A stretch of 36,282 nucleotides of DNA from Pelagibacteraceae bacterium AG-464-B04 (GTDB taxonomy: Bacteria; Pseudomonadota; Alphaproteobacteria; Pelagibacterales; Pelagibacteraceae), in assembly GCA_003209225.1 (NCBI GenBank), contig QCRZ01000008.1, positions 1-36,282 on the forward strand, given 5' to 3'. Numbering within the stretch: the stretch's first letter is position 1; each line of letters begins with the position of its first letter. This document shows positions 2,538 through 14,661 of this stretch, piece by piece. The notes beneath the pieces were generated by a model, which saw only the letters and a list, made by a program, of their open reading frames with translations, ran no database searches and was not told the origin of the DNA. The translations under genes were made by a program, and so were the position numbers.

Positions 2538-3935
2538 TCAATCAACTTTTTGGAAAAGTATAACAAAAGCAGTTCTAATAATAATGTAAAGATCCAACAT
2601 AAGATTCCAATTTTTTATATAATACAAATCATGTTGAAAACGTTTATCCATTTTTTCTTTATCATCAGTAGGTCCTCTATATCCATGTACCTGTGCCCAA
2701 CCTGTTAAACCCGGTAGACATTTATGTCTTTGCATAAAATTTAAAATTTCTTCTGAATAAAATGTAGTATGTTTAAGCATGTGAGGTCTTGGTCCAACAA
2801 TGGACATATCACCCTTCAAAACATTAGCTAGTTGAGGTAGCTCATCTATACTTAATCTTCTTAAAATCTTGCCAATCCCCGTCACTCTTTTATCTCCACT
2901 TTTTACCTGTTTACTTTCTTTTTCCATGCCTGAATTTGACAATGTGCGAAGTTTATAAATATTAAAAGATCTTCCATCCCATCCAGTTCTTTTTTGTTTA
3001 AAAAATATTGGAAAACCATCATTAAGAAGTATAAAAATTGACGATACTAAAATAATTGGAAAGGATAGTGCTAAAAACACCAAAGACAATACTCTATCAA
3101 GTAAGTTTTTTATAAAAAAATCTGTTCCATAAAAAGGAGAGAATGAAACATTGTAAAAGTCAAAACCCGCTTCACTATCCAGTCCTTCTATAAATTTAAA
3201 TTTTGATTCTGGGGAAATTAAACGACAATCAACCGAAAATTGCATAAATTTATCAATTAATTTTTCAATATGTATTTGAGTTTTTATTGAAGAAACTATC
3301 CATATTTGACCAATAGCATGATGGTTAAAAACATAATTAATATCATCTTGTAAACTAAACCTGGGTACTCCATAGAAATGGGTGTCCGCACTATCTTCAT
3401 CTATGGTGATTAAACATTTAATAACTGAGTTACTTATTTTCTTTGGAAATTTTTTTATAATATTTTTGCAATTAACGGCGTCACCTACTATTAGTATATT
3501 TCTTTGAATAACATTTGAGTAGATAAGAGAACGGTAAAATAAATCAAATAAAACCTTTAAAATTACTAATGAAAAAAAACTCATTATAAAAGTAGAAAAG
3601 AACCATATACGAGAATAAGAATCAGTTACTTTAAATACTACTGATAAAATAATACAAATAATAAAAGTTTGTATTAGTACTATTAATTCAATTCTAAAAA
3701 ATCGAGCTGTACCTATAAAATATCTATTATCTCTTGACTTTAGTATTCCAAATATAAAAAAAACAACTACGATTAAGACTGATCCTTTAACGTAAGTATC
3801 GGATAAATTAAAAGTTCCTTCTCTAAGATAATATGAATATGCAGAACACGTATATAAAGATATTGAAATAATTAAAAAATAAAATTGAATAAAAATTTTA
3901 TCATTTCTTTGAAAAAATTTTTCTATCAGTTTCAT
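2538..3935 (-). CDS. polyprenyl-phosphate sugar-1-phosphate transferase (WcaJ/PssY type)
   Basis: 465 residues, the normal length for the large polyisoprenyl-phosphate hexose-1-phosphate transferases. The N-terminal third holds about four hydrophobic segments, then a soluble CoA-binding-like middle domain, a further hydrophobic segment near 280-305, and the C-terminal bacterial sugar transferase domain. That domain shows KQKRTGWDG, the Leu-Ser-Ile-Asp-Glu-Leu-Pro-Gln-Leu active-site segment with the Asp364-Glu365 dyad, Ser-Ile-Val-Gly-Pro-Arg-Pro, and Leu-Pro-Gly-Leu-Thr-Gly-Trp. It transfers a sugar phosphate from a UDP-sugar to undecaprenyl phosphate in the inner membrane, the first step of repeat-unit assembly. 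It lies 55 bp downstream of the Wzc-type gene on the same strand, and the two are probably co-transcribed. The exact sugar cannot be told. Confidence 0.93.
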   Translation of the reverse strand: MKLIEKFFQRNDKIFIQFYFLIISISLYTCSAYSYYLREGTFNLSDTYVKGSVLIVVVFFIFGILKSRDNRYFIGTARFFRIELIVLIQTFIICIILSVVFKVTDSYSRIWFFSTFIMSFFSLVILKVLFDLFYRSLIYSNVIQRNILIVGDAVNCKNIIKKFPKKISNSVIKCLITIDEDSADTHFYGVPRFSLQDDINYVFNHHAIGQIWIVSSIKTQIHIEKLIDKFMQFSVDCRLISPESKFKFIEGLDSEAGFDFYNVSFSPFYGTDFFIKNLLDRVLSLVFLALSFPIILVSSIFILLNDGFPIFFKQKRTGWDGRSFNIYKLRTLSNSGMEKESKQVKSGDKRVTGIGKILRRLSIDELPQLANVLKGDMSIVGPRPHMLKHTTFYSEEILNFMQRHKCLPGLTGWAQVHGYRGPTDDKEKMDKRFQHDLYYIKNWNLMLDLYIIIRTAFVILFQKVD

Positions 3936-3990: not shown

Positions 3991-6198
3991 TTAACTGTAT
4001 GATTTGTACTTTCTATAGTATCCTCCGTATTGATAATATCCATAGTAACTTGCATTTGAAGTATCTAGGTCATTAAACACTAGCCCATCGACTGAAACAT
4101 TAACATTTTTTAATTTTTTAACCGCAGATTTAATTCCAGCAAATTTTGTTACTCTTGATCTTGCAATAATTAGATTATGATCAGTTGCTTGACTTATAAA
4201 AAGTGTATCACTGACAGGTTGAATTGGTGGAGTATCTAAAATTATATAGTCGTAGTGTTGTTTTAAAGAATCTAAAAATTCTTTTAATTTACTTGGTGTA
4301 GTTAAATCAGTTAAGTCGGATCTTCTTGCTCCAGATGTCATTAATTTTATATTTGAACCTGGTAATTCAATAATTGTATCAGAAAAATTTGTATCACCTT
4401 GAATTAAGTCACTAAAGCCTGCTTTAGTTTTTAAATCACTTTGGTTCATCTCATTCAAAACTGATGGTCTTCTTATATCTGTTTCAATCAAAAGAACTTT
4501 TCCAATTTTTGAAAAAGCTAACGCAATGTTTAGTGCAATGGTTGTTTTACCTTCTCCAGAATAAGTGGATGTTAATAATATTGACTTATTTTTCTTATAT
4601 TTGGCAACTAAAAGAGTCCTTAAGGTTCTTATACTCTCTGAAAACTCAGAATTAACATCTTCTAAAAAAATTTGAGACAAGTGATATCCTTTATCTAACT
4701 TTGTTACGCTAGGCAATGTGGCTAGAACTGGTATATCTAGCTTATCTAAATTTGAAGGCTCAACAACGGTATTTCTATTGAATTCGAAATAAATTAACAA
4801 ACCAAATAAAATTAAAAGCGATATAAAATACATCATATAAGTTATTCTTTTAATATTAGGAGAAATAGGTATGGCTGGTAGAAGTGCTGCTTGAATTATT
4901 TTAACATTAGATGATTGAAGTTCTTTTACTTCATTTGTTTCTTTCATCCTTTGAAGAAAAGTTTCATAGATTTTACTAGTTATCTCAACTTCTCTTTCAT
5001 ACTTTCGAATCTCTGCATCTTTTTCTTCTAGCTCTTGTAAGTCATTTTTAGCTAAATTTAACTCTTCTTCACTTGAAACAATAAATGATTTTAAATTTGA
5101 TAGTTCAAAAGCTGAAGCTGTAATATTTTCTTGTAATATTTCTTTAAGTCTATTATCCAAATTCTCTTTGGTTTTAAACATTTTTTTTAGTTTTGGATGC
5201 TCATCTTTATAAACAATTTGTAGTGCCTCAATATTGTTTTCTGTAGAGCTTATATTTGTTCTTATTGCATCAACCTCTTTTTTATTTCTTAAATCAGCAA
5301 TAGCTAATAATTCTTCAATGTTACCTTCTGCAAGCTTAATAGCTGTTAGATCATTTTCTTTTTTTTGTAACTCTCTATTAGCATCAATAATTCGTTTAGA
5401 AACTGATTTAATTTGATCTGTTTTTAAGGTTTTAATATTTCCTATATCTGTTAATTTATTTTTTTTTTTATATTTCAGCAGTTCTTTTTCTGCAGCTTCC
5501 ATATTTACTAAAAGTTCAGATAACCTGATATTAATTTGTTTATTTGCATGAGCTGTAATTTTAACTTTAGTATCTACATCATATCGCAAATACGACTCTA
5601 TTAGCTCCGTCAAAAGAAATTTTGCAAGTTCTGGGTTATTTGATTTAAAAGAAAGTTCAATTACATCACTATTTCTAATATTTCTGACTGAATAATTGGC
5701 TTTCATATAGTTTTTTAATGATGGGCTGATATCTACAGTTAATTTTTTTTTTGTTTTTTTGTCTGGTTGAAATAATATAAGTTTTTTTAAAGCTGCTGTT
5801 TTATTTTTAATAAAACTCTTAGGAATTATTCTAATTAAATTTGCTATTTTCTTTTTTCTTTCTTCATCTCTTAGAACTCCATTAAGAATTTCATCACTTC
5901 TCATTATTTGAATTTGGTTGTTAATATGATTGAAACCACCTAATTGGCCACCTGCATCCCCTGAGTAAACTTCTTCTATATCAACTATTTTTTTAACTTC
6001 TGATTCGATTACCAAAGTAGCTGTACTTTTAAAAATTGGGTTTATATTTAAAGCTACCAAATAACCTAACAAACCAAACGCTAACGGAATTAAAAAAAGT
6101 AATTTTTTATATTTTAAAAAAGTTATCCAGTAATGAGTAAGATCTAACTGCTCATTAATAGAGTCTAATTTATCAATTAGTGTATTTTTCTTTTCCAT
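3991..6198 (-). CDS. wzc: Wzc-type polysaccharide co-polymerase and BY-kinase
   Basis: 735 residues, close to the usual length of fused Wzc/ExoP proteins. A membrane segment near 30-52 and another near 450-471 flank a long periplasmic coiled-coil region. The cytoplasmic kinase follows, with Walker A Ser-Gly-Glu-Gly-Lys551-Thr, Walker A-prime Glu-Thr-Asp574, and Walker B Ile-Leu-Asp655-Thr-Pro-Pro. The last 20 residues hold nine tyrosines, the usual autophosphorylation cluster. It controls chain length and works with the Wza-type exporter at 13.6-14.7 kb. The segment after the A-prime domain reads SGARRSDLTDL in place of the more usual proline-rich Asn-Pro-Ser-Glu-Leu motif, a small departure. 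The first of a two-gene minus-strand unit with the initiating transferase. Confidence 0.93.
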   Translation of the reverse strand: MEKKNTLIDKLDSINEQLDLTHYWITFLKYKKLLFLIPLAFGLLGYLVALNINPIFKSTATLVIESEVKKIVDIEEVYSGDAGGQLGGFNHINNQIQIMRSDEILNGVLRDEERKKKIANLIRIIPKSFIKNKTAALKKLILFQPDKKTKKKLTVDISPSLKNYMKANYSVRNIRNSDVIELSFKSNNPELAKFLLTELIESYLRYDVDTKVKITAHANKQINIRLSELLVNMEAAEKELLKYKKKNKLTDIGNIKTLKTDQIKSVSKRIIDANRELQKKENDLTAIKLAEGNIEELLAIADLRNKKEVDAIRTNISSTENNIEALQIVYKDEHPKLKKMFKTKENLDNRLKEILQENITASAFELSNLKSFIVSSEEELNLAKNDLQELEEKDAEIRKYEREVEITSKIYETFLQRMKETNEVKELQSSNVKIIQAALLPAIPISPNIKRITYMMYFISLLILFGLLIYFEFNRNTVVEPSNLDKLDIPVLATLPSVTKLDKGYHLSQIFLEDVNSEFSESIRTLRTLLVAKYKKNKSILLTSTYSGEGKTTIALNIALAFSKIGKVLLIETDIRRPSVLNEMNQSDLKTKAGFSDLIQGDTNFSDTIIELPGSNIKLMTSGARRSDLTDLTTPSKLKEFLDSLKQHYDYIILDTPPIQPVSDTLFISQATDHNLIIARSRVTKFAGIKSAVKKLKNVNVSVDGLVFNDLDTSNASYYGYYQYGGYYRKYKSYS

Positions 6199-6371: not shown

Positions 6372-6836
6372 TTACTTTGATAATATTATCATCTTAGTTT
6401 CTTCACTAAATTTAGGAATATTTCTCAAATAAAATATTCTAAGTGCGGTTTTCATTTCATCGTTATTTTTAGAGAGAATAACCGCATTTTGAAAGCTTTT
6501 TTCAAAGTCTACGGAGTATTCTTTGTTAACTATTGAGTAAAGCATTTTGTTGTTCCAATAGAAGTAATCTAATGCTGATTTACCTTCAGTGGCAATCATG
6601 AGAATATAAAGTTTTTTGCTATTCTGATTTCGGCTTCGAAGATGTTTTTTTGAATAACCAACTGGTTTTTTAAAAAGCTCAGAATAATTATATGGTGAGA
6701 AATTCCAGGATTTTAATAAAAAACCCTCGATTCTGTGATTAAATAGCAAAATTAAAATGAAGAAAATATTATAGAAAATGATTATAATTAAGCCAAAAAT
6801 TAATAGCTTGTGAAAGAACTTTGAAAATATAGACAT
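6372..6836 (-). CDS. small membrane-anchored protein of unknown function
   Basis: About 154 residues if begun at the ATG whose complement is 6834-6836; a TTG five codons further upstream is possible. I do not recognise the family. A single hydrophobic segment (about 10-32, very Ile/Phe-rich) is followed by a basic, Asn/Lys/Tyr-rich soluble part with a hydrophobic YILMIAT stretch around residue 77 and a helical tail. Topology would be N-terminal anchor with the rest probably periplasmic. The composition and length look like a real protein rather than a shadow, and it has no other gene over it. Its ATG shares the CATG palindrome with the ATG of the divergent giant gene, so each gene's upstream control must lie inside the other. 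Confidence 0.55.
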   Translation of the reverse strand: MSIFSKFFHKLLIFGLIIIIFYNIFFILILLFNHRIEGFLLKSWNFSPYNYSELFKKPVGYSKKHLRSRNQNSKKLYILMIATEGKSALDYFYWNNKMLYSIVNKEYSVDFEKSFQNAVILSKNNDEMKTALRIFYLRNIPKFSEETKMIILSK

Positions 6837-9800
6837 GCTTAAAAATACCAAAAAAACGTTTAAATTTATATTAAAAAACTCTATTTTTTTATTAATATTA
6901 TTTATTCTATTTTATAATAACGGCCTCAGGGCTGAAGAAGAGAGAAAAAAGTTTGTTGGATTTATTGATACTCTAGAGGGCACCGTAACCAAAGAGGATG
7001 GTGACAACATTGTTGAATTAAAAGAATTTGACCAAATTTTTGAAAATGAAACTATCAAGTTAGATTCGAATTCTTCTATTGTGGTTTCCTTTGTTGATAA
7101 TTCAATTTTAACTTTATCAAATGAATCTGAACTCTTAATAGAAAAATTTGATGACACAACGGAAGAGCCAATTTTTATAATAAGTATTCCTAAAGGTAAA
7201 GTTCTTTTCGAATCTGGAGCAATAGCAAAAAAAGAAAACGGAATCATGAAGATCAAATTATCTGATATGGAAGTAATTCTTAGAGGAACATGTTTTACTG
7301 CTAATGTTAGTGAAGAATCTGTAACAGTAGCTCTTGTTGCGGACTCGATGGGTAATGTTGGTAAACTCGATGTAACTACTGCAGATGGTCAAATCACAAC
7401 CATCGATGAAGAAGCTGCTGGCGTAAATATTTCTGCGGGTAATCAAATTGAAACTTTGGTGCTGAGTGATGAGGAAAGGGATGCAGCAACAGAATCAATT
7501 AAAGAAATTGCTGTTCAGTCAGTAACCCAAAGTGAAGAAAACATTGAGCGTCAATTACAAAAAAAACTTGCGGCCGGTACAATGCCCGATGCGAATGGTG
7601 ATGGTGTAGCGGATTTAGCAGACGTTGAATCTTTCAAAGCTGATCTATTAGAAGCTAAAGAAGCCAAACTAGAATATCTCGTTCAAGAGTCTACTGAAGA
7701 TCTAAGTTTATTGTCAGAAATTATTGTTAAATCAAATTCTGATACCTCGATTCAGTTAATGGAAGATATGATGGAGAATAATGCAGAAAGTACAGCTCTG
7801 TTAATGACAGAAATTGCTGAACAAAATTTTGATATTTTTACTCACGTAGCTCAAGCTGATATTGGAAACTTTGAAGATCTAAGAGAATCTATTGTAAATG
7901 AAATGATTCAAGATGAAAGTGATTTTGTTGCCGATACGATGGCACAAATGATGGCTGTAAGTAACGCATCAACGAGTTCATATATGATAAATGAAATTTC
8001 AATTATTGAAGGTACTGACACTGTTGGTGCAGGTTTGGCAATGGATGTATTAGCAACATTTGCGGAAGTTGCTTCAGAAAAAATGACAGAATTTTACGAA
8101 GATGATGCTCAAATGATGGATACATTGTCAACTCATGCCTTTGAATATGCAACAGAAGATGACATCGACATGATATCAGATATGATGCAGGAAACTCCTG
8201 GACAAAATACTGCTTATTTAATGGCTAGTATGATTGAACATAACGCTGAAATGATAGCAGATGTTTATGAAAACTTAGCTGAGCAAGATTTTGATTTGTT
8301 CGAACATATTGAAACAGCAAGAGACGAATCTGCAATGATGTACGGAGATATGCAGGAAGAACCTGACCCTTATGGTTACGATCCTTATATGACAGAACCT
8401 GATCCTTATTATGATCCTTATATGTCTGAACCTGATCCTTATTATGATCCTTATATGTCAGAACCTGATCCTTATGGTTACGATCCTTATATGACAGAAC
8501 CTGATCCTTATTATGATCCTTATATGACAGAACCTGATATTTATATGCCAATGCCAAATGACGATATGATGATGATGATGGCTCAAGATCAATTTTTCAA
8601 TAGTTTAAAGGGAGATATTTTCTCAGAAATTATTAACCACAGCGAAGGAACTGCTGCTGAAATTACTGCTGATCTTATGATGAATTCTACCGGTGACAGC
8701 GCAATGTTCATGATGGAAACAATGATGTATTCCAATCCCGAACTGGTAGGTGACGTTATGGCAAACTTTGTTGAGGAAGATTTTGATATTTTTGAACATT
8801 TTGAGGAGGAACCAGAATATGAGGAAGAATATCCAGGATATATAGACCCAACTATAGGAGAAATGCCAGAAATGGAAACTCTACCTGGTGATGAAATAGC
8901 ACTGATGCCAACCGACGACCCTGCCATGACAACTAAAAGCAAAAAAGGTTTAAACAAAGAAGCACGACAAGCGCAAAAAGCAGAAAGAAAAGCAGAAAAA
9001 GAAAGATTAAGAGCTGAAAAGAAAGCTGCAAGATTAGAAAAAAAAGAAGCAAAAAAATTAGAAAGACAAAGGAAGAAAGAAGAAAAAAAATTTGCAAGAG
9101 AACTAAAACAAGAACAAGAAGAAATGGGAATAGATATGGGACCAATGTTTGAAAATGAGTCTCCAATGGATGCAGATTTTTATGCTGTACAAGATCTCAA
9201 AGCAAACATCATCGGAGAAATGATTATGCATGGTGGTGAAGACACAATGGACACAATGGCGCAAATGATTGCACAAAGTGACGATGCCGAAACCTCAACA
9301 TTAATTTTTGAAACGGTGATGGAGCAATCAGAAATGCTGGAAACCATGCCATCAGAAAATTTTGAAAGTGGTGATAACTTGTCATTAGAATTATTAAGTA
9401 GTTTAAATGATTATGAACCAGATATGATGGACACTTTGTATGAAGAACAATCGAGTTTAATGGATACTGTAATAGAAGATGCCTTTGAAGAAGTTTCTGA
9501 AGAAGATATTGAAGCGATTGCCGATATAATCATAGAATCTGATAATGAAGAAATGGCCTCAGCGGTTTTTGAAAATATGATGGAATCTTCAGATCAGAAT
9601 ATGATTTCAGATGTATTTGTTGAAGTTGCTAGTGAGTCTCCGGAAACTTTTGTTGCAATGGCTGAAATGGATGTAGAATTATATGAAAATATTTCTATGG
9701 AAACCTATACTAGTGAAGATATGTCTGCAGAAAATTTAATGGCAAGTATAATGGCAGATGAAGGTTATACTCCTACAACAACTGCTACAGATTTTAATGA

Positions 9801-12186
9801 AGATATTTATGATCCAGCGTTTGGTGAAATGGATCCTTATAACGATCCCTATATGACAGAAACTTACGATCCTTATTACGACCCTTATATGATGGATCCT
9901 TATTACGATCCTTATATGATGGATCCTTATTACGATCCTTATATGGATCCTTATTACGATCCTTATATGGCAGCAACTTACGATCCCTATTATGATCCTT
10001 ATTACGATCCTTATATGATGGATCCTTATTACGATGCTTATGCAGTTGATGATGATGATGATGATGATGATACTGATGCTACCGATACTTCATATATGGG
10101 ATATTCTAGTTATGATGCGTGGTTGGCTGCAAATCCTGCGGATCAAAACCCAACTTGGATGAGCCCACCTATGACTATGGGACCTTATACAGTGGGCACA
10201 GCAATAACTGCTATAACTTTTACCGCAGAATCTATTCCGATGTCTAATGGAGTAAGTTACTCAGTAACAGGTTTACCTTCAGATATAAGTATGTCTGGTA
10301 CATCAATTTCTGGAACGCCACAAGATGACGGCACGTATTATGCAAACCTGGTTGCTACTGACAATGTAACAGGAGCAGAAGCTTCTTATTCAATGATGTT
10401 TGATATAGATCCAGCAGCCGACCCAACTTGGATGAGCCCACCTATGACTATGGGACCTTATACAGTGAACACAGCAATAACTGCTATAACTTTTACCGCA
10501 GAATCTATTCCGATGTCTAATGGAGTAAGTTACTCAGTAACAGGTTTACCTTCAGGTATAAGTATGTCTGGTACATCAATTTCTGGAACGCCAGAAGATG
10601 ACGGCACGTATTATGCAAACCTGGTTGCTACTGACAATGTAACAGGAACAGATACTTCTTATTCAATGATGTTTGATATAGATCCAGCAGGTCCACTTGC
10701 TTGGTCAAATACACCATATGCTATGGGACCTTTTTATGTAGGAACACCAATAAGTTTTACTTTCTTAGCTACATCAGGTTATTCAATAACGTATGGTGAT
10801 TCTGGTTTACCCGACGGTTTAACAAGAACAGGTAATACAGTTTCTGGTACACCTACAGACGAAGAAAATTATACAGCAACAATTACTGCAAGCGATGGTG
10901 TTGCTACCGCGCTATCAGAAACTTTAACTTTTGAAATTCAGGAGGCACAACCACTTAATTGGATGAATATACCATCTACTATGGGACCTTATACAGTAGG
11001 TTCACCAATCTCTGCTATTTCTTTTTTAGCTACATCAGGTTATTCAATAACGTATGGTGATTCTGGTTTACCCGACGGTTTAACAAGAACAGGTACAACA
11101 ATTTCTGGAACACCAAGTTCGGATGGTGCTTTCTCAGCAACTATAACGGCAGATGATGGCAATGCTACTCCACTTTCACAAATATTATATTTTAATGTAA
11201 ATCCAGCGGCAGAACCTACATGGGTGGCAACGCCTATGACTTCAGGACCATATACGCAAGGTGATGAAATTAATATTATTGATTTTGAAGCTGAATCTAC
11301 TCCTGTTGGAAACGCAATAACCTATAGGTACACTGGCACTTTACCTCCAGGTTTAGATTTTGACACCTCAATTGGTGAAATTTCTGGAGTACCTACTGAT
11401 GACGGTAGTTATACCATGCAAGTCATTGCTACGGATAGCGCATGGGGTTCAGAAACTCCAGGCACTATGTTGTCATTTAATATAGATATGGCAGCAAGTC
11501 CTACGTGGGGATATGTTCCAAGTTCGGTTTCTGATGATACAGGAGAATCATACAGCGAAACTTTAAGTGCTACAGCTGCTTCTGGCAATGTAACTTTTTC
11601 AGCAAGTAATTTACCTCCGGGTTTAAGTCTATCTGGCTCAACAATTTCTGGTACATTTGAAACGTTTGGCTATTATACCGCTACAATTACGGCAACAGAC
11701 AGCTCATACGGTTCCTCAAGTATGGAATATATAAATTTTGATATAGAACCAGCTAATCCAGCTTCAATGAACTGGGCTGAAAATACTCCTGCTGAAGGAT
11801 CATTGGGAAATTTTGAAGTAGGCGACTATATTGATTTCACTTTCCAAGCTAAATATGGGAATTATAATCCTGCTACAGGATGGGCTTATGATTCTATGGA
11901 TACCAGATACCAATTAACAGGTAACTTACCATCTGATGTATCATGGCTAACAATGGGAGGTTATGCAGCAAATAACCCTACCACAATGATGGGAGCTGCT
12001 GTTGTTCGTGGATATGCTCCTAGTCAAGCAACAGAATCTGATTATGATTTTACAATAAGGGCATATAATATATCAACGTATGTCGAAGCATCTCCGGCTC
12101 CCGCGTCATACAATGATAGGGATTTTGTAATTACTATACTTGAAGATGCTAATTGTTTAAGTCCTTCCAATAATATTTGTTCTTAA
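6835..12186 (+). CDS. giant exported FecR-domain repeat protein
   Basis: 1783 residues. Signal peptide at 1-33, with cleavage likely after Leu-Arg-Ala33. A FecR-type domain spans roughly 38-205, followed by an EF-hand/dockerin-like loop DANGDGVADLAD (252-263). Methionine- and acid-rich helical modules lie at about 285-505, 575-665 and 770-960, several ending in a Glu-Gln-Asp-Phe-Asp-Ile-Phe-Glu-His-like motif. An Asp-Pro-Tyr repeat block (509-570), a Lys/Glu/Arg-rich charged helix (701-762), a second Asp-Pro-Tyr block (1000-1070) and eight aspartates (1072-1079) follow. Six Ig-like (He_PIG-like) repeats cover 1106-1641, then a C-terminal domain ending with two cysteines. FecR domains elsewhere occur in sigma regulators and in large cell-surface proteins; the signal peptide and Ig repeats favour the latter. 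No sorting motif or type I secretion tail is recognised. The stop overlaps the next gene's ATG (TAATG). Base composition and codon use look richer than in the glycosyltransferase genes. Confidence 0.85.
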   Translation: MLKNTKKTFKFILKNSIFLLILFILFYNNGLRAEEERKKFVGFIDTLEGTVTKEDGDNIVELKEFDQIFENETIKLDSNSSIVVSFVDNSILTLSNESELLIEKFDDTTEEPIFIISIPKGKVLFESGAIAKKENGIMKIKLSDMEVILRGTCFTANVSEESVTVALVADSMGNVGKLDVTTADGQITTIDEEAAGVNISAGNQIETLVLSDEERDAATESIKEIAVQSVTQSEENIERQLQKKLAAGTMPDANGDGVADLADVESFKADLLEAKEAKLEYLVQESTEDLSLLSEIIVKSNSDTSIQLMEDMMENNAESTALLMTEIAEQNFDIFTHVAQADIGNFEDLRESIVNEMIQDESDFVADTMAQMMAVSNASTSSYMINEISIIEGTDTVGAGLAMDVLATFAEVASEKMTEFYEDDAQMMDTLSTHAFEYATEDDIDMISDMMQETPGQNTAYLMASMIEHNAEMIADVYENLAEQDFDLFEHIETARDESAMMYGDMQEEPDPYGYDPYMTEPDPYYDPYMSEPDPYYDPYMSEPDPYGYDPYMTEPDPYYDPYMTEPDIYMPMPNDDMMMMMAQDQFFNSLKGDIFSEIINHSEGTAAEITADLMMNSTGDSAMFMMETMMYSNPELVGDVMANFVEEDFDIFEHFEEEPEYEEEYPGYIDPTIGEMPEMETLPGDEIALMPTDDPAMTTKSKKGLNKEARQAQKAERKAEKERLRAEKKAARLEKKEAKKLERQRKKEEKKFARELKQEQEEMGIDMGPMFENESPMDADFYAVQDLKANIIGEMIMHGGEDTMDTMAQMIAQSDDAETSTLIFETVMEQSEMLETMPSENFESGDNLSLELLSSLNDYEPDMMDTLYEEQSSLMDTVIEDAFEEVSEEDIEAIADIIIESDNEEMASAVFENMMESSDQNMISDVFVEVASESPETFVAMAEMDVELYENISMETYTSEDMSAENLMASIMADEGYTPTTTATDFNEDIYDPAFGEMDPYNDPYMTETYDPYYDPYMMDPYYDPYMMDPYYDPYMDPYYDPYMAATYDPYYDPYYDPYMMDPYYDAYAVDDDDDDDDTDATDTSYMGYSSYDAWLAANPADQNPTWMSPPMTMGPYTVGTAITAITFTAESIPMSNGVSYSVTGLPSDISMSGTSISGTPQDDGTYYANLVATDNVTGAEASYSMMFDIDPAADPTWMSPPMTMGPYTVNTAITAITFTAESIPMSNGVSYSVTGLPSGISMSGTSISGTPEDDGTYYANLVATDNVTGTDTSYSMMFDIDPAGPLAWSNTPYAMGPFYVGTPISFTFLATSGYSITYGDSGLPDGLTRTGNTVSGTPTDEENYTATITASDGVATALSETLTFEIQEAQPLNWMNIPSTMGPYTVGSPISAISFLATSGYSITYGDSGLPDGLTRTGTTISGTPSSDGAFSATITADDGNATPLSQILYFNVNPAAEPTWVATPMTSGPYTQGDEINIIDFEAESTPVGNAITYRYTGTLPPGLDFDTSIGEISGVPTDDGSYTMQVIATDSAWGSETPGTMLSFNIDMAASPTWGYVPSSVSDDTGESYSETLSATAASGNVTFSASNLPPGLSLSGSTISGTFETFGYYTATITATDSSYGSSSMEYINFDIEPANPASMNWAENTPAEGSLGNFEVGDYIDFTFQAKYGNYNPATGWAYDSMDTRYQLTGNLPSDVSWLTMGGYAANNPTTMMGAAVVRGYAPSQATESDYDFTIRAYNISTYVEASPAPASYNDRDFVITILEDANCLSPSNNICS
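8359..8540 (+). repeat. in-frame Asp-Pro-Tyr tandem repeat block 1
   Basis: Five near-identical DNA units in the order 36-33-33-36-33 bp encode EPDPYGYDPYMT or EPDPYYDPYMS/T. Units one and four are the longer GGTTAC-containing form, so the array looks like a duplicated higher-order unit. All changes keep the reading frame of the giant protein. Confidence 0.9.
9832..10074 (+). repeat. in-frame Asp-Pro-Tyr tandem repeat block 2 and Asp tract
   Basis: A second, less regular array of GATCCTTATTACGATCCTTAT-type units (24-27 bp) encodes DPYYDPYMM-like repeats. It runs into a GAT microsatellite of eight codons at 10048-10071. The units differ from block 1 by lacking the Glu-Pro linker and often using Met-Met-Asp. 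Confidence 0.88.
10150..10692 (+). repeat. tandem duplication of one Ig-like module
   Basis: Copy 1 (10150-10422, 91 codons) and copy 2 (10423-10692, 90 codons) differ at only seven bases over the alignable part plus a small change at the junction. All seven fall in six codons and all change the amino acid. They are the first two of six Ig-like modules. Confidence 0.9.
10765..11095 (+). repeat. 70-bp identical block shared by Ig-like modules 3 and 4
   Basis: Bases 10765-10834 and 11026-11095 are identical, while the flanking parts of the two modules (10693-10950 and 10951-11214) have clearly diverged. This is a sharp-edged patch of identity within otherwise different repeats. Confidence 0.85.
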
Positions 12187-13544
12187 TGGTTTTGAAAAAA
12201 AACCTTTTAAGAAATATATTTTTAATTATAATAGCACTCTGTGTAAGTTTTAATGCTAGCAATACTAATGTATTAGTTCAGTTATCCTCGATTTATTTTA
12301 TTACTTTTTTTCTTCTATGTTTAAAAAACAAAGAAGTTTTAGAAGATATTAAAAAAAATTATTTTAATAACAAAATTTTTTTTGTACTTTTTTTTATTTA
12401 CTTAATTTATTTAATTATTCAAATAATTCCTCTTCCGTTAAGTTTTTTTAAAATTATATCTCCTATCAACTATGAATTATATTCCTCGATTAAAATAGAT
12501 AAAAAATTTTGGTCTTTAAGTCTAAATCCTAGTAACTCTTATTTTAAAATACTTAATATAATTAATTTTTTTATAATTTTTTTAACATTCCCTGTTTTAT
12601 TTTACAGAAGCAAACATCTTATGAGATTGTTATTGTTTTTATGTTTACTGGGATTTTGCCATGCTGTTTTTGCTACGTATTGGATGTTGATAGGAAACCC
12701 ATCAAATTTCTTAATAGAAAAAATTCATTACCTTAGTTCAAGTACAGGTCTTTTTGTTAATAGAGCAGTGTTTGGAACTTTCCTTATGTTATGCGCCTTC
12801 TCAGGATTGTACTATATGGCTTTGTTTTTTCAAAAAAATGAAGCAGCAAAAATGGATCTTTTTGAACAAATCAAATCTAATATTATTTACATTAGAATTT
12901 TTATAATTTTTCTTACCATAGGAATATTAACGACATGGTCTAGAATTGCTAATTTTAGCTATTTTTTAATTTTATTATCTTCTGTAATGTATTCAAAAAT
13001 ATCATTTAAAAAATTTATAAACCCTTTTTCTATAGTGATATTATTTATTTTAGTATTCGATATTTTAATCCTAGGAATGATTTTTGGAAATGAAAAATTA
13101 GTAGATAGATACATTGAAACATCCATAGTAAGTGAAGCTACAAGAATTTCTTTATCAGAATTCGGATTCGTATATTTTAAAAAGTTTTGGCTATTTGGCT
13201 ATGGATCGGGAGCTTTTGGAAGCGTTTACAAACTTTTTTATGATATGCCTGAAGGACTAATGCTAGCGATGCATGCTCATAATGATGTAATAGAATTATT
13301 AGGAGAAATAGGAATAGTAGGTAGTTTAATTTTAATTTTAACAATAATTACATATTTTAAAAAACTAATACAAAATATCAATCAAGGTAGAGAATTTTTA
13401 AGATTTTTTTTGATAAGTTCTCTCTTTGTCATACTTTTTATACAAAGCTTTGTTGATTATTCATTACATGTGCCGGGCATATCGATTTTCTTAGCTGTCA
13501 TTTTATCTTCTGCGCTTATACAATTTAGAAAAATCAATAAATAA
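12186..13544 (+). CDS. O-antigen ligase/polymerase family membrane protein (Wzy_C type)
   Basis: 452 residues from the ATG that overlaps the giant gene's stop (TAATG at 12184-12188); a TTG nine bases upstream is less likely. It is very hydrophobic, with about ten to twelve membrane segments. A large loop carries the Wzy_C/O-antigen-ligase signature: Thr-Trp-Ser-Arg before a membrane segment, a Gly-Tyr-Gly-Ser-Gly-Ala motif, and His363-Ala-His365-Asn-Asp-Val-Ile-Glu-Leu-Leu-Gly-Glu. Family members act on undecaprenyl-diphosphate glycans in the periplasm as polymerases, as ligases to lipid A core, or as O-oligosaccharyltransferases to protein. Sequence alone does not separate these. The translational coupling to an exported repeat protein raises the last possibility. 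It ends 16 bp from the convergent Wza-type gene. Confidence 0.85.
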   Translation: MVLKKNLLRNIFLIIIALCVSFNASNTNVLVQLSSIYFITFFLLCLKNKEVLEDIKKNYFNNKIFFVLFFIYLIYLIIQIIPLPLSFFKIISPINYELYSSIKIDKKFWSLSLNPSNSYFKILNIINFFIIFLTFPVLFYRSKHLMRLLLFLCLLGFCHAVFATYWMLIGNPSNFLIEKIHYLSSSTGLFVNRAVFGTFLMLCAFSGLYYMALFFQKNEAAKMDLFEQIKSNIIYIRIFIIFLTIGILTTWSRIANFSYFLILLSSVMYSKISFKKFINPFSIVILFILVFDILILGMIFGNEKLVDRYIETSIVSEATRISLSEFGFVYFKKFWLFGYGSGAFGSVYKLFYDMPEGLMLAMHAHNDVIELLGEIGIVGSLILILTIITYFKKLIQNINQGREFLRFFLISSLFVILFIQSFVDYSLHVPGISIFLAVILSSALIQFRKINK

Positions 13545-13560
13545 TTTTTTCAATATTAAA

Positions 13561-14661
13561 CTAATCTCTGTTAGAATTTTCTATATACCAAGTATCGTTT
13601 TCTTTTATGTAAGGCTTATAAGTTTTGAAAAGTGTTTCGGATGGCGTTAAAAGACTAACTATTTTATTCCATTCAACAAGTTTTGTGGAAGGGATAAAAA
13701 CAATATCATTAGGTAATATATAAAAATTGTTAGCTGCTACTAGAGCTGCTGGATTCCTAATATCGATTTCATAAATATCAATATGCAAAAACTTTGAAAT
13801 ATCTTCTCTAAGAATATAGATTGCTTTCTGTTTAGCGGAGCCTTGGTTAATTCCTTGTGTTGCAAGCATTTCGGTTAATGTCATATCTTTGTATACCGAA
13901 ACTGGCCCAGGTCTACTAAATTCACCAAAGGCATAAGCTCGGTCAACATCTCCCTCCTGTATATGTAATACATCCTCTTTTCTAAGATAAAAATTTAATT
14001 CTGTTTTGTTTAAATTTAATAATTTATATAAATCAATTTCATAAACTTCACTACCTCTTCTTAAAAGTGCTTTTTTATTATAGGTTTGTTGATCCTTAAC
14101 GTAGCCCGCCCTCATCAATGAGTCCAACAATTTTAATGGTTGCTCTGATAACAAAATTGATTGTGGTCTTGCAATCGAACCTGTCAAATAAACATAGCTG
14201 CTATTGTACGCTTCAATCTTTACTATTGTTTCTGGTTCCTGATAATAGCTTTTTAGTATGTCATTGATAAAGCCTTGAGCTTCTTCTTTTGTTTTGTCTT
14301 TAACAACAACTTGACCAACGTAAGGAATGGTTACAGCTCCATCTGGACTAATAGTATAAGAACCATCAATATCTTCTATATCGGTTAATGAGATATTAAT
14401 AACATCGCCATAACCAAGCGTATAATAATATACATCATCAGATTTCAATTCTTTTAATTTGTCTGTAGCTTTTTTCTTTATATCTTCAATTCTTGGCAGG
14501 CTAGCTGTGTTAATTTTATTCAGATTATAAAACATTAATGTAACCCCATTTTGTTTTAATCCCATTCTTTTAGGATTTTTACTGGTAGGTTCTTTTTTAA
14601 AACCCGGAGATAGAGCACAAGATGAAAGAATGAAAAAAATGACTAAATACCTAATAAACAT
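13561..14661 (-). CDS. wza: Wza-type polysaccharide export lipoprotein
   Basis: 366 residues, the usual length for Wza-class outer-membrane polysaccharide exporters. A lipoprotein signal peptide with lipobox Leu-Ser-Ser-Cys15 starts it. The Poly_export domain follows (Tyr-Thr-Leu-Gly-Tyr-Gly-Asp-Val-Ile, then Ile-Ser-Pro-Asp-Gly and Ile-Pro-Tyr-Val-Gly). Two SLBB-like segments come next, around Val-Tyr-Leu-Thr-Gly-Ser and Ala-Tyr-Ala-Phe-Gly-Glu-Phe. The C-terminus contains Ile-Leu-Pro-Asn-Asp-Ile-Val-Phe-Ile-Pro. It forms the periplasm-spanning and outer-membrane channel that pairs with the Wzc-type protein. It stands alone on the minus strand, separated from wzc by the giant gene and the ligase-like gene, which is not the usual adjacency. 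Confidence 0.93.
   Translation of the reverse strand: MFIRYLVIFFILSSCALSPGFKKEPTSKNPKRMGLKQNGVTLMFYNLNKINTASLPRIEDIKKKATDKLKELKSDDVYYYTLGYGDVINISLTDIEDIDGSYTISPDGAVTIPYVGQVVVKDKTKEEAQGFINDILKSYYQEPETIVKIEAYNSSYVYLTGSIARPQSILLSEQPLKLLDSLMRAGYVKDQQTYNKKALLRRGSEVYEIDLYKLLNLNKTELNFYLRKEDVLHIQEGDVDRAYAFGEFSRPGPVSVYKDMTLTEMLATQGINQGSAKQKAIYILREDISKFLHIDIYEIDIRNPAALVAANNFYILPNDIVFIPSTKLVEWNKIVSLLTPSETLFKTYKPYIKENDTWYIENSNRD

Follow-up and report, generated by a model that had tools for sequence, protein, structure and literature searches.

A giant exported protein of 1783 amino acids (aa), encoded in the genome of Pelagibacteraceae bacterium AG-464-B04, a SAR11 ocean bacterium, shows a strong association with a Wza polysaccharide export cassette; the mechanism behind this association is inferred. 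The gene lies on contig QCRZ01000008.1 (C8), which was analyzed as a whole (36,282 nucleotides (nt), hereafter the window) and belongs to an assembly of 966,640 bases in 50 contigs that is 63% complete. We tentatively favor a reading of the giant protein as a dedicated envelope scaffold, i.e. a Sec-exported structural partner of the Wza/Wzc polysaccharide cassette, and of its outer domains as exchangeable.

Co-occurrence of the giant gene with the Wza cassette

Six loci with the giant gene are known: the window, L013 (genome AG-422-J21), G002 (from the genus of the window), and G043, G036 and G381 from another genus, Pelagibacter. Family-wide presence was counted in 397 sampled genomes of Pelagibacteraceae. 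The core of the protein was found in five of these genomes, and about 1-2% of the sampled relatives carry the gene cassette; the remaining FecR matches cover, apart from internal repeats, the FecR part only. A divergent gene of ~150 aa was present in exactly the same five genomes. The chance that a second gene matches the same five of 397 genomes in a random draw is ~1e-11, although related genomes are not independent draws. The Wza family was detected in seven genomes, namely the five with the core protein, G209 and G419, and the Wzy_C gene in the same seven (19 genomes tested). The wza contigs of G209 and G419 (4.6 and 3.7 kb) end inside the Wzy_C gene, before the slot of the giant gene is reached.

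The co-occurrence spans two genera. The gene order of the window (~150-aa gene, giant gene, Wzy_C, wza, wzc) recurs in G036, G043 and G381, but what flanks the cassette on the outside is different in G043, in G036/G381 and in the genus of the window; we therefore conclude that the cassette travels as a unit. At 40 FecR loci of other families (~9 kb on each side where the contig allows), no relatives of Wza, Wzc, Wzy_C or WcaJ were found nearby, whereas the same search, as a positive control, recovered the cassette in the SAR11 loci. The genes of the cassette in the window are as follows.

2538..3935, minus strand: wcaJ-type sugar-phosphate transferase (PF02397, TIGR03025)
3991..6198, minus strand: wzc, chain-length/tyrosine autokinase (family matches)
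6372..6836, minus strand: divergent ~150-aa gene with one N-terminal transmembrane segment, the co-occurring partner (six-sequence alignment)
6835..12186, plus strand: giant exported protein gene (ATG start, 1783 aa, intact open reading frame (ORF) without internal stop; full-length relative in L013)
12186..13544, plus strand: Wzy_C membrane enzyme of the O-antigen ligase/polymerase family (PF04932), between the giant gene and wza
13561..14661, minus strand: wza, polysaccharide export protein (PF02563, SLBB)

Genes for glycosyltransferases and for a pyruvyl transferase, along with further sugar genes, lie to the right of wza. An earlier note, made from the DNA sequence without database searches, had placed the giant gene between wzc and wza. 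Both gene families were indeed matched, and the Wzy_C gene and the ~150-aa gene, the latter absent from that note, were found to lie there as well.

The ~150-aa gene, which sits between wzc and the giant gene, is kept at all six related loci and has a ratio of nonsynonymous to synonymous differences (pN/pS) of 0.30 between the window and G002; it is therefore a real gene. Its start codon overlaps that of the giant gene (CATG; window 6820-6850), so each promoter should lie inside the opposite gene. Overlapping or almost touching 5' ends of the two genes recur in the related loci. At the other end, the stop codon of the giant gene overlaps the start codon of the Wzy_C gene (TAATG) in the window and in L013, and the two are a few bases apart in G043 and G036. 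In G002, a Wzc-like stretch of 103 residues (63% identity; L014:4343-4651) adjoins the ~150-aa gene and may be a remnant or an assembly effect.

Conserved core and variable parts of the giant protein

The following parts of the giant protein, all on the plus strand, were delimited.

6835..6933: Sec-type signal peptide, aa 1-33 (approximate), with hydrophobic aa 8-26 followed by the cleavage-like junction LRA|EE; N-termini are alike in relatives
6940..7389: FecR beta domain, aa ~36-185 (PF04773; 5ix9 in profile and fold searches)
7588..7623: EF-hand/dockerin-like loop DANGDGVADLAD, aa 252-263, kept in five of the six loci and lost in G002
7660..8316: predicted alpha-solenoid block A, aa 276-494
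8352..8546: Asp-Pro-Tyr (DPY) array 1, a variable linker with its repeats at nt ~8358-8544; Asp-Pro-Phe (DPF)-rich in L013, absent in the Pelagibacter relatives
8593..8808: alpha-helical block B, similar to the end of block A
8935..9123: Lys/Glu-rich stretch, aa ~701-763, probably a long charged helix (sequence, composition)
9190..9693: alpha-helical block C, similar to block A
9837..10075: DPY array 2 and poly-Asp (repeats at nt ~9837-10062)
10147..11760: six He_PIG immunoglobulin (Ig)-like repeats (PF05345 in six stretches, E 8.3e-32; six core motifs)
12145..12183: C-terminal tail DANCLSPSNNICS, related to the tails of relatives

The hydrophobic stretch of the signal peptide is the sole one in the chain, and no further membrane segment is present. 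With a net charge of -260 the chain is extremely acidic, and its helical segments are acidic and Met-rich. The FecR domain was matched by PF04773 with E 1.7e-6 in the whole protein (above the cut-off) and E 3.3e-8 in the isolated segment. A profile of the N-terminal 500 residues matched 5ix9, an adhesin domain from Marinomonas primoryensis (E 5.6e-7). A Foldseek search with an AlphaFold2 (AF2) model led to the same structure, described as a cell surface anchoring domain (probability 1.00, root-mean-square deviation 1.6 over 61 columns). This first model was poor (mean predicted local distance difference test score (pLDDT) 54.5), and nothing but its match to 5ix9 was used, a match in agreement with the sequence profile. 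Residues 276-494, modeled together with their internal repeats, yielded a confident all-alpha solenoid of short helices (pLDDT 83.6, predicted template modeling score (pTM) 0.80). Although an alpha-solenoid is predicted, the giant protein has no Pfam match to a tetratricopeptide repeat (TPR) family. The loop DANGDGVADLAD fits the calcium-type pattern DxNxDGxxDxxD. Ig units 1 and 2 (window 10148-10690) share 97% DNA identity over 270 nt, as in a recent duplication.

Comparison with the other loci distinguishes what is kept from what is exchanged. The protein of L013, from another Pelagibacteraceae genome, has 1827 aa, matches the giant protein end to end and is encoded in the same position and gene order; in it, a DPF-rich linker replaces array 1, array 2 is absent, and the Ig array is its own and longer (eight He_PIG). 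The proteins of G043, G036 and G381 (1179, 1009 and 855 aa, respectively) consist only of signal peptide, FecR domain, DxNxDGxxDxxD loop and helices that repeat every ~160 residues. The G002 protein is without the loop, its C-terminal end is mostly made of other repeats, and its gene runs across both ends of its contig. These end repeats (L014:15122-16741) weakly resemble virion structural and tail-fiber families (phrog_10330, phrog_2710), and the contig wraps on itself there. As judged from these sequences, the conserved core comprises the signal peptide, the FecR domain, the DxNxDGxxDxxD loop and the predicted alpha-solenoid, whereas the Ig repeats, the DPY arrays and the charged stretch are variable additions of the genus of the window, partly replaced even there.

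The earlier note had described a single 1783-residue chain with signal peptide, FecR domain, calcium-loop-like sequence, Met-rich helices, two DPY arrays, a charged helix and six Ig-like repeats, and each of these was recovered by profile, repeat, model, motif or sequence evidence within the intact ORF. It had also presented the architecture as novel. This holds for the conserved combination of FecR domain, loop and solenoid, together with the small divergent membrane protein and within a Wza/Wzc/Wzy_C cassette, but not for the DPY arrays, the charged stretch and the Ig array, which are absent, degenerate or replaced in relatives. Of the two findings named there as refuting, an assembly fusion of two genes is ruled out by the independent full-length orthologue in L013, and the G002 gene likewise continues across its contig ends; a named family was not encountered either, as no Pfam or NCBIfam model spans the whole protein or its helical part.

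A short similar C-terminal tail ends all six proteins (DANCLSPSNNICS, DSTCVSPTNNICI, DPNYISPA, DKNVSPN, DTNISAN and NKNISPN). This similarity is suggestive, although the sequences number only six. The idea that the Cys-containing C-terminus acts as a sorting tag of general use was rejected, as the Cys pattern occurs nowhere else among 120 relatives. DPY arrays as conserved functional sites (e.g. for Tyr glycosylation) were rejected as well, since they are absent or different in relatives.

Possible roles of the giant protein

The scaffold reading is favored because the core is an exported alpha-solenoid with a precedent in the periplasmic solenoid of PgaA (PMC9384988), because the FecR part resembles the anchoring domain 5ix9, and because the C-terminal part differs among relatives while the core is kept. 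It is further favored by the co-occurrence of the core, the ~150-aa gene, Wza and Wzy_C, by the kept gene order and by the overlapping ends of the giant and Wzy_C genes. In such an arrangement, the mature protein would start in the periplasm, and the FecR domain may form its envelope-anchoring end, possibly via the small partner in the inner membrane. Stretched out as a scaffold, the very acidic solenoid could position the polysaccharide, or hold it, on the way between Wzy_C and Wza, and the variable beta-rich C-terminal part would be an outward, fast-evolving segment. The exported scaffold tied to the polysaccharide locus, as proposed in the earlier note, is supported, and strengthened by the strict co-occurrence with the Wza cassette. 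Several points weigh against this reading. Contact of the giant protein with the glycan, Wza, Wzc or its small partner is presumed, as is a location beyond the inner membrane. The Foldseek comparison of the solenoid with solved structures gave generic matches, none of them significant; the known loci number only six; and free-standing adhesins, too, typically have Ig-like repeats and acidic linkers. A bolder version, which we regard as doubtful, would make the FecR-solenoid protein and its head-to-head small membrane protein a so far undescribed component of certain Wza/Wzc polysaccharide systems that bridges the periplasm, carries or covalently bears polysaccharide and has exchangeable outer domains.

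The giant protein is probably a dedicated structural partner of the sugar coat and not a free-standing adhesin. As a surface adhesin, it would bind particles or cells outside the cell through its Ig-like repeats, and the link to polysaccharide would reflect a shared surface-variation locus. This is in line with the occurrence of FecR in many giant alphaproteobacterial proteins, with the origin of 5ix9 from an adhesin, with a weak match of the Ig repeats to the platelet adhesin structure 4m03, and with the high variability of the C-terminal region. However, the signal is of the Sec and not of the type I kind; RTX repeats gave no Pfam family match and were not seen in the translation; and neither an anchor for the outer membrane nor a barrel nor an RTX signal can be made out in the protein. 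LapG (PF06035) was not found in 10 genomes, several of them incomplete, although the control in Caulobacter was positive, and a Lap system was rejected for this reason. A search for secretin in the genus of the window, covering five sampled genomes that are all incomplete, found none, though Pelagibacter relatives have one, and type II secretion was therefore likewise rejected. The Sec signal, the lack of RTX repeats and of a further membrane segment, and the failure to find LapG or, in this genus, a secretin place at least the core in the periplasm or envelope and disfavor a standard type I or II adhesin. Furthermore, three relatives without adhesive repeats keep the same cassette. We consider the adhesin role rather unlikely.

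A close rival, although unlikely too, is that the giant protein is a glycan acceptor, onto which Wzy_C as a protein O-ligase would load polysaccharide or its units in the periplasm, giving a coat-bearing surface glycoprotein. That the Wzy_C gene is always adjacent, with an overlap of stop and start codons, would suit this role, as would the weak profile match of the enzyme to 7tpg, a solved WaaL-type polymerase/ligase, and the Wzy_C domain of WsaB and WsfB, which are predicted O-ligases for S-layer proteins, in whose systems Tyr, Ser or Thr carries the glycan (PMC2943079). Yet the Wzy_C family includes ordinary polymerases, and the gene could equally be wzy, the chain polymerase; moreover, the Tyr-rich segments that come to mind first as candidates, the DPY arrays, do not occur in the Pelagibacter relatives. 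A signaling role, in which FecR would sense the state of polysaccharide export and pass the signal on via a CHASE2 sensor or the small membrane protein, seems improbable. FecR is known from trans-envelope signaling, a CHASE2-SpoIIE phosphatase gene of G043 (L015:7044-9239) directly adjoins the ~150-aa and FecR-solenoid genes, and CHASE2 genes are also found close to other FecR proteins of Pelagibacter. Against this, CHASE2 was not found in five incomplete genomes of the genus of the window, neither a sigma factor nor a receptor adjoins the giant gene, and size and repeats point to a structural role.

Few cells on Earth are as abundant as those of SAR11. Of the 397 sampled genomes of the family, only seven bear Wza, and these also carry the specific and costly giant protein and its small membrane partner wherever the contig shows the slot. 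With its five genes, the cassette offers a defined unit for studying how a polysaccharide coat is exported by some SAR11 and tied to the cell, and coat export and attachment bear on resistance to phages and grazers in the ocean.

Comparison with known systems

FecR in giant alphaproteobacterial proteins, Ig repeats and solenoid scaffolds are already known. No description was found of the core formed by FecR and solenoid, of the small divergent gene that accompanies it, or of their strict membership in a Wza cassette, and a literature search found no paper linking FecR, Pelagibacter and polysaccharide export.

FecR domains are common in giant alphaproteobacterial proteins, several of which have RTX repeats. 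With giant FecR/RTX (LapA-type) adhesins, including the Marinomonas protein of 5ix9, the giant protein shares an N-terminal FecR-type beta domain in a very long chain, in some cases with repeats; it differs in its Sec signal, which is no trait of type I substrates, in the solenoid right after FecR and in the linkage to the Wza cassette. FecIR iron-signaling regulators share PF04773, but where they have a cytoplasmic anti-sigma domain the giant protein has an N-terminal signal peptide; Pfam scans of the window genes revealed no sigma factor among the annotated neighbors. Many other Pelagibacter genomes (L006, L007, L008, L010 and L018-L021) encode a different FecR protein, often of 400-540 aa, which adjoins a TPR-like exported protein and sometimes a CHASE2-type protein and thus belongs to a separate FecR gene set. 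L053 and L055 (G444 and G675, small-genome alphaproteobacteria) have FecR proteins of ~870 aa with RTX-like repeats, beside an ORF rich in Gly-Pro-Phe repeats. Tandem He_PIG domains link the giant protein and its L013 relative to other He_PIG Ig-like repeat proteins.

The S-layer type represented by SpaA and WsfB likewise combines a long exported protein with a Wzy_C enzyme in the same genome, the enzyme being proposed to glycosylate the S-layer protein (PMC2943079). In our case, the giant and Wzy_C genes are adjacent, and no S-layer domain was matched in the giant protein. In other exopolysaccharide systems, solenoids that are exported have an established role as scaffolds; that of PgaA, a periplasmic TPR solenoid, binds the polymer and has been suggested to direct it toward the porin (PMC9384988). 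Like the TPR scaffolds PgaA, AlgK, PelB and BcsC, the giant protein is a predicted exported alpha-solenoid, electronegative and encoded with polysaccharide export genes (PMC9384988). Unlike them, it is without a TPR match, barrel or lipoprotein anchor, its export system is Wza/Wzc, and it carries a FecR domain.

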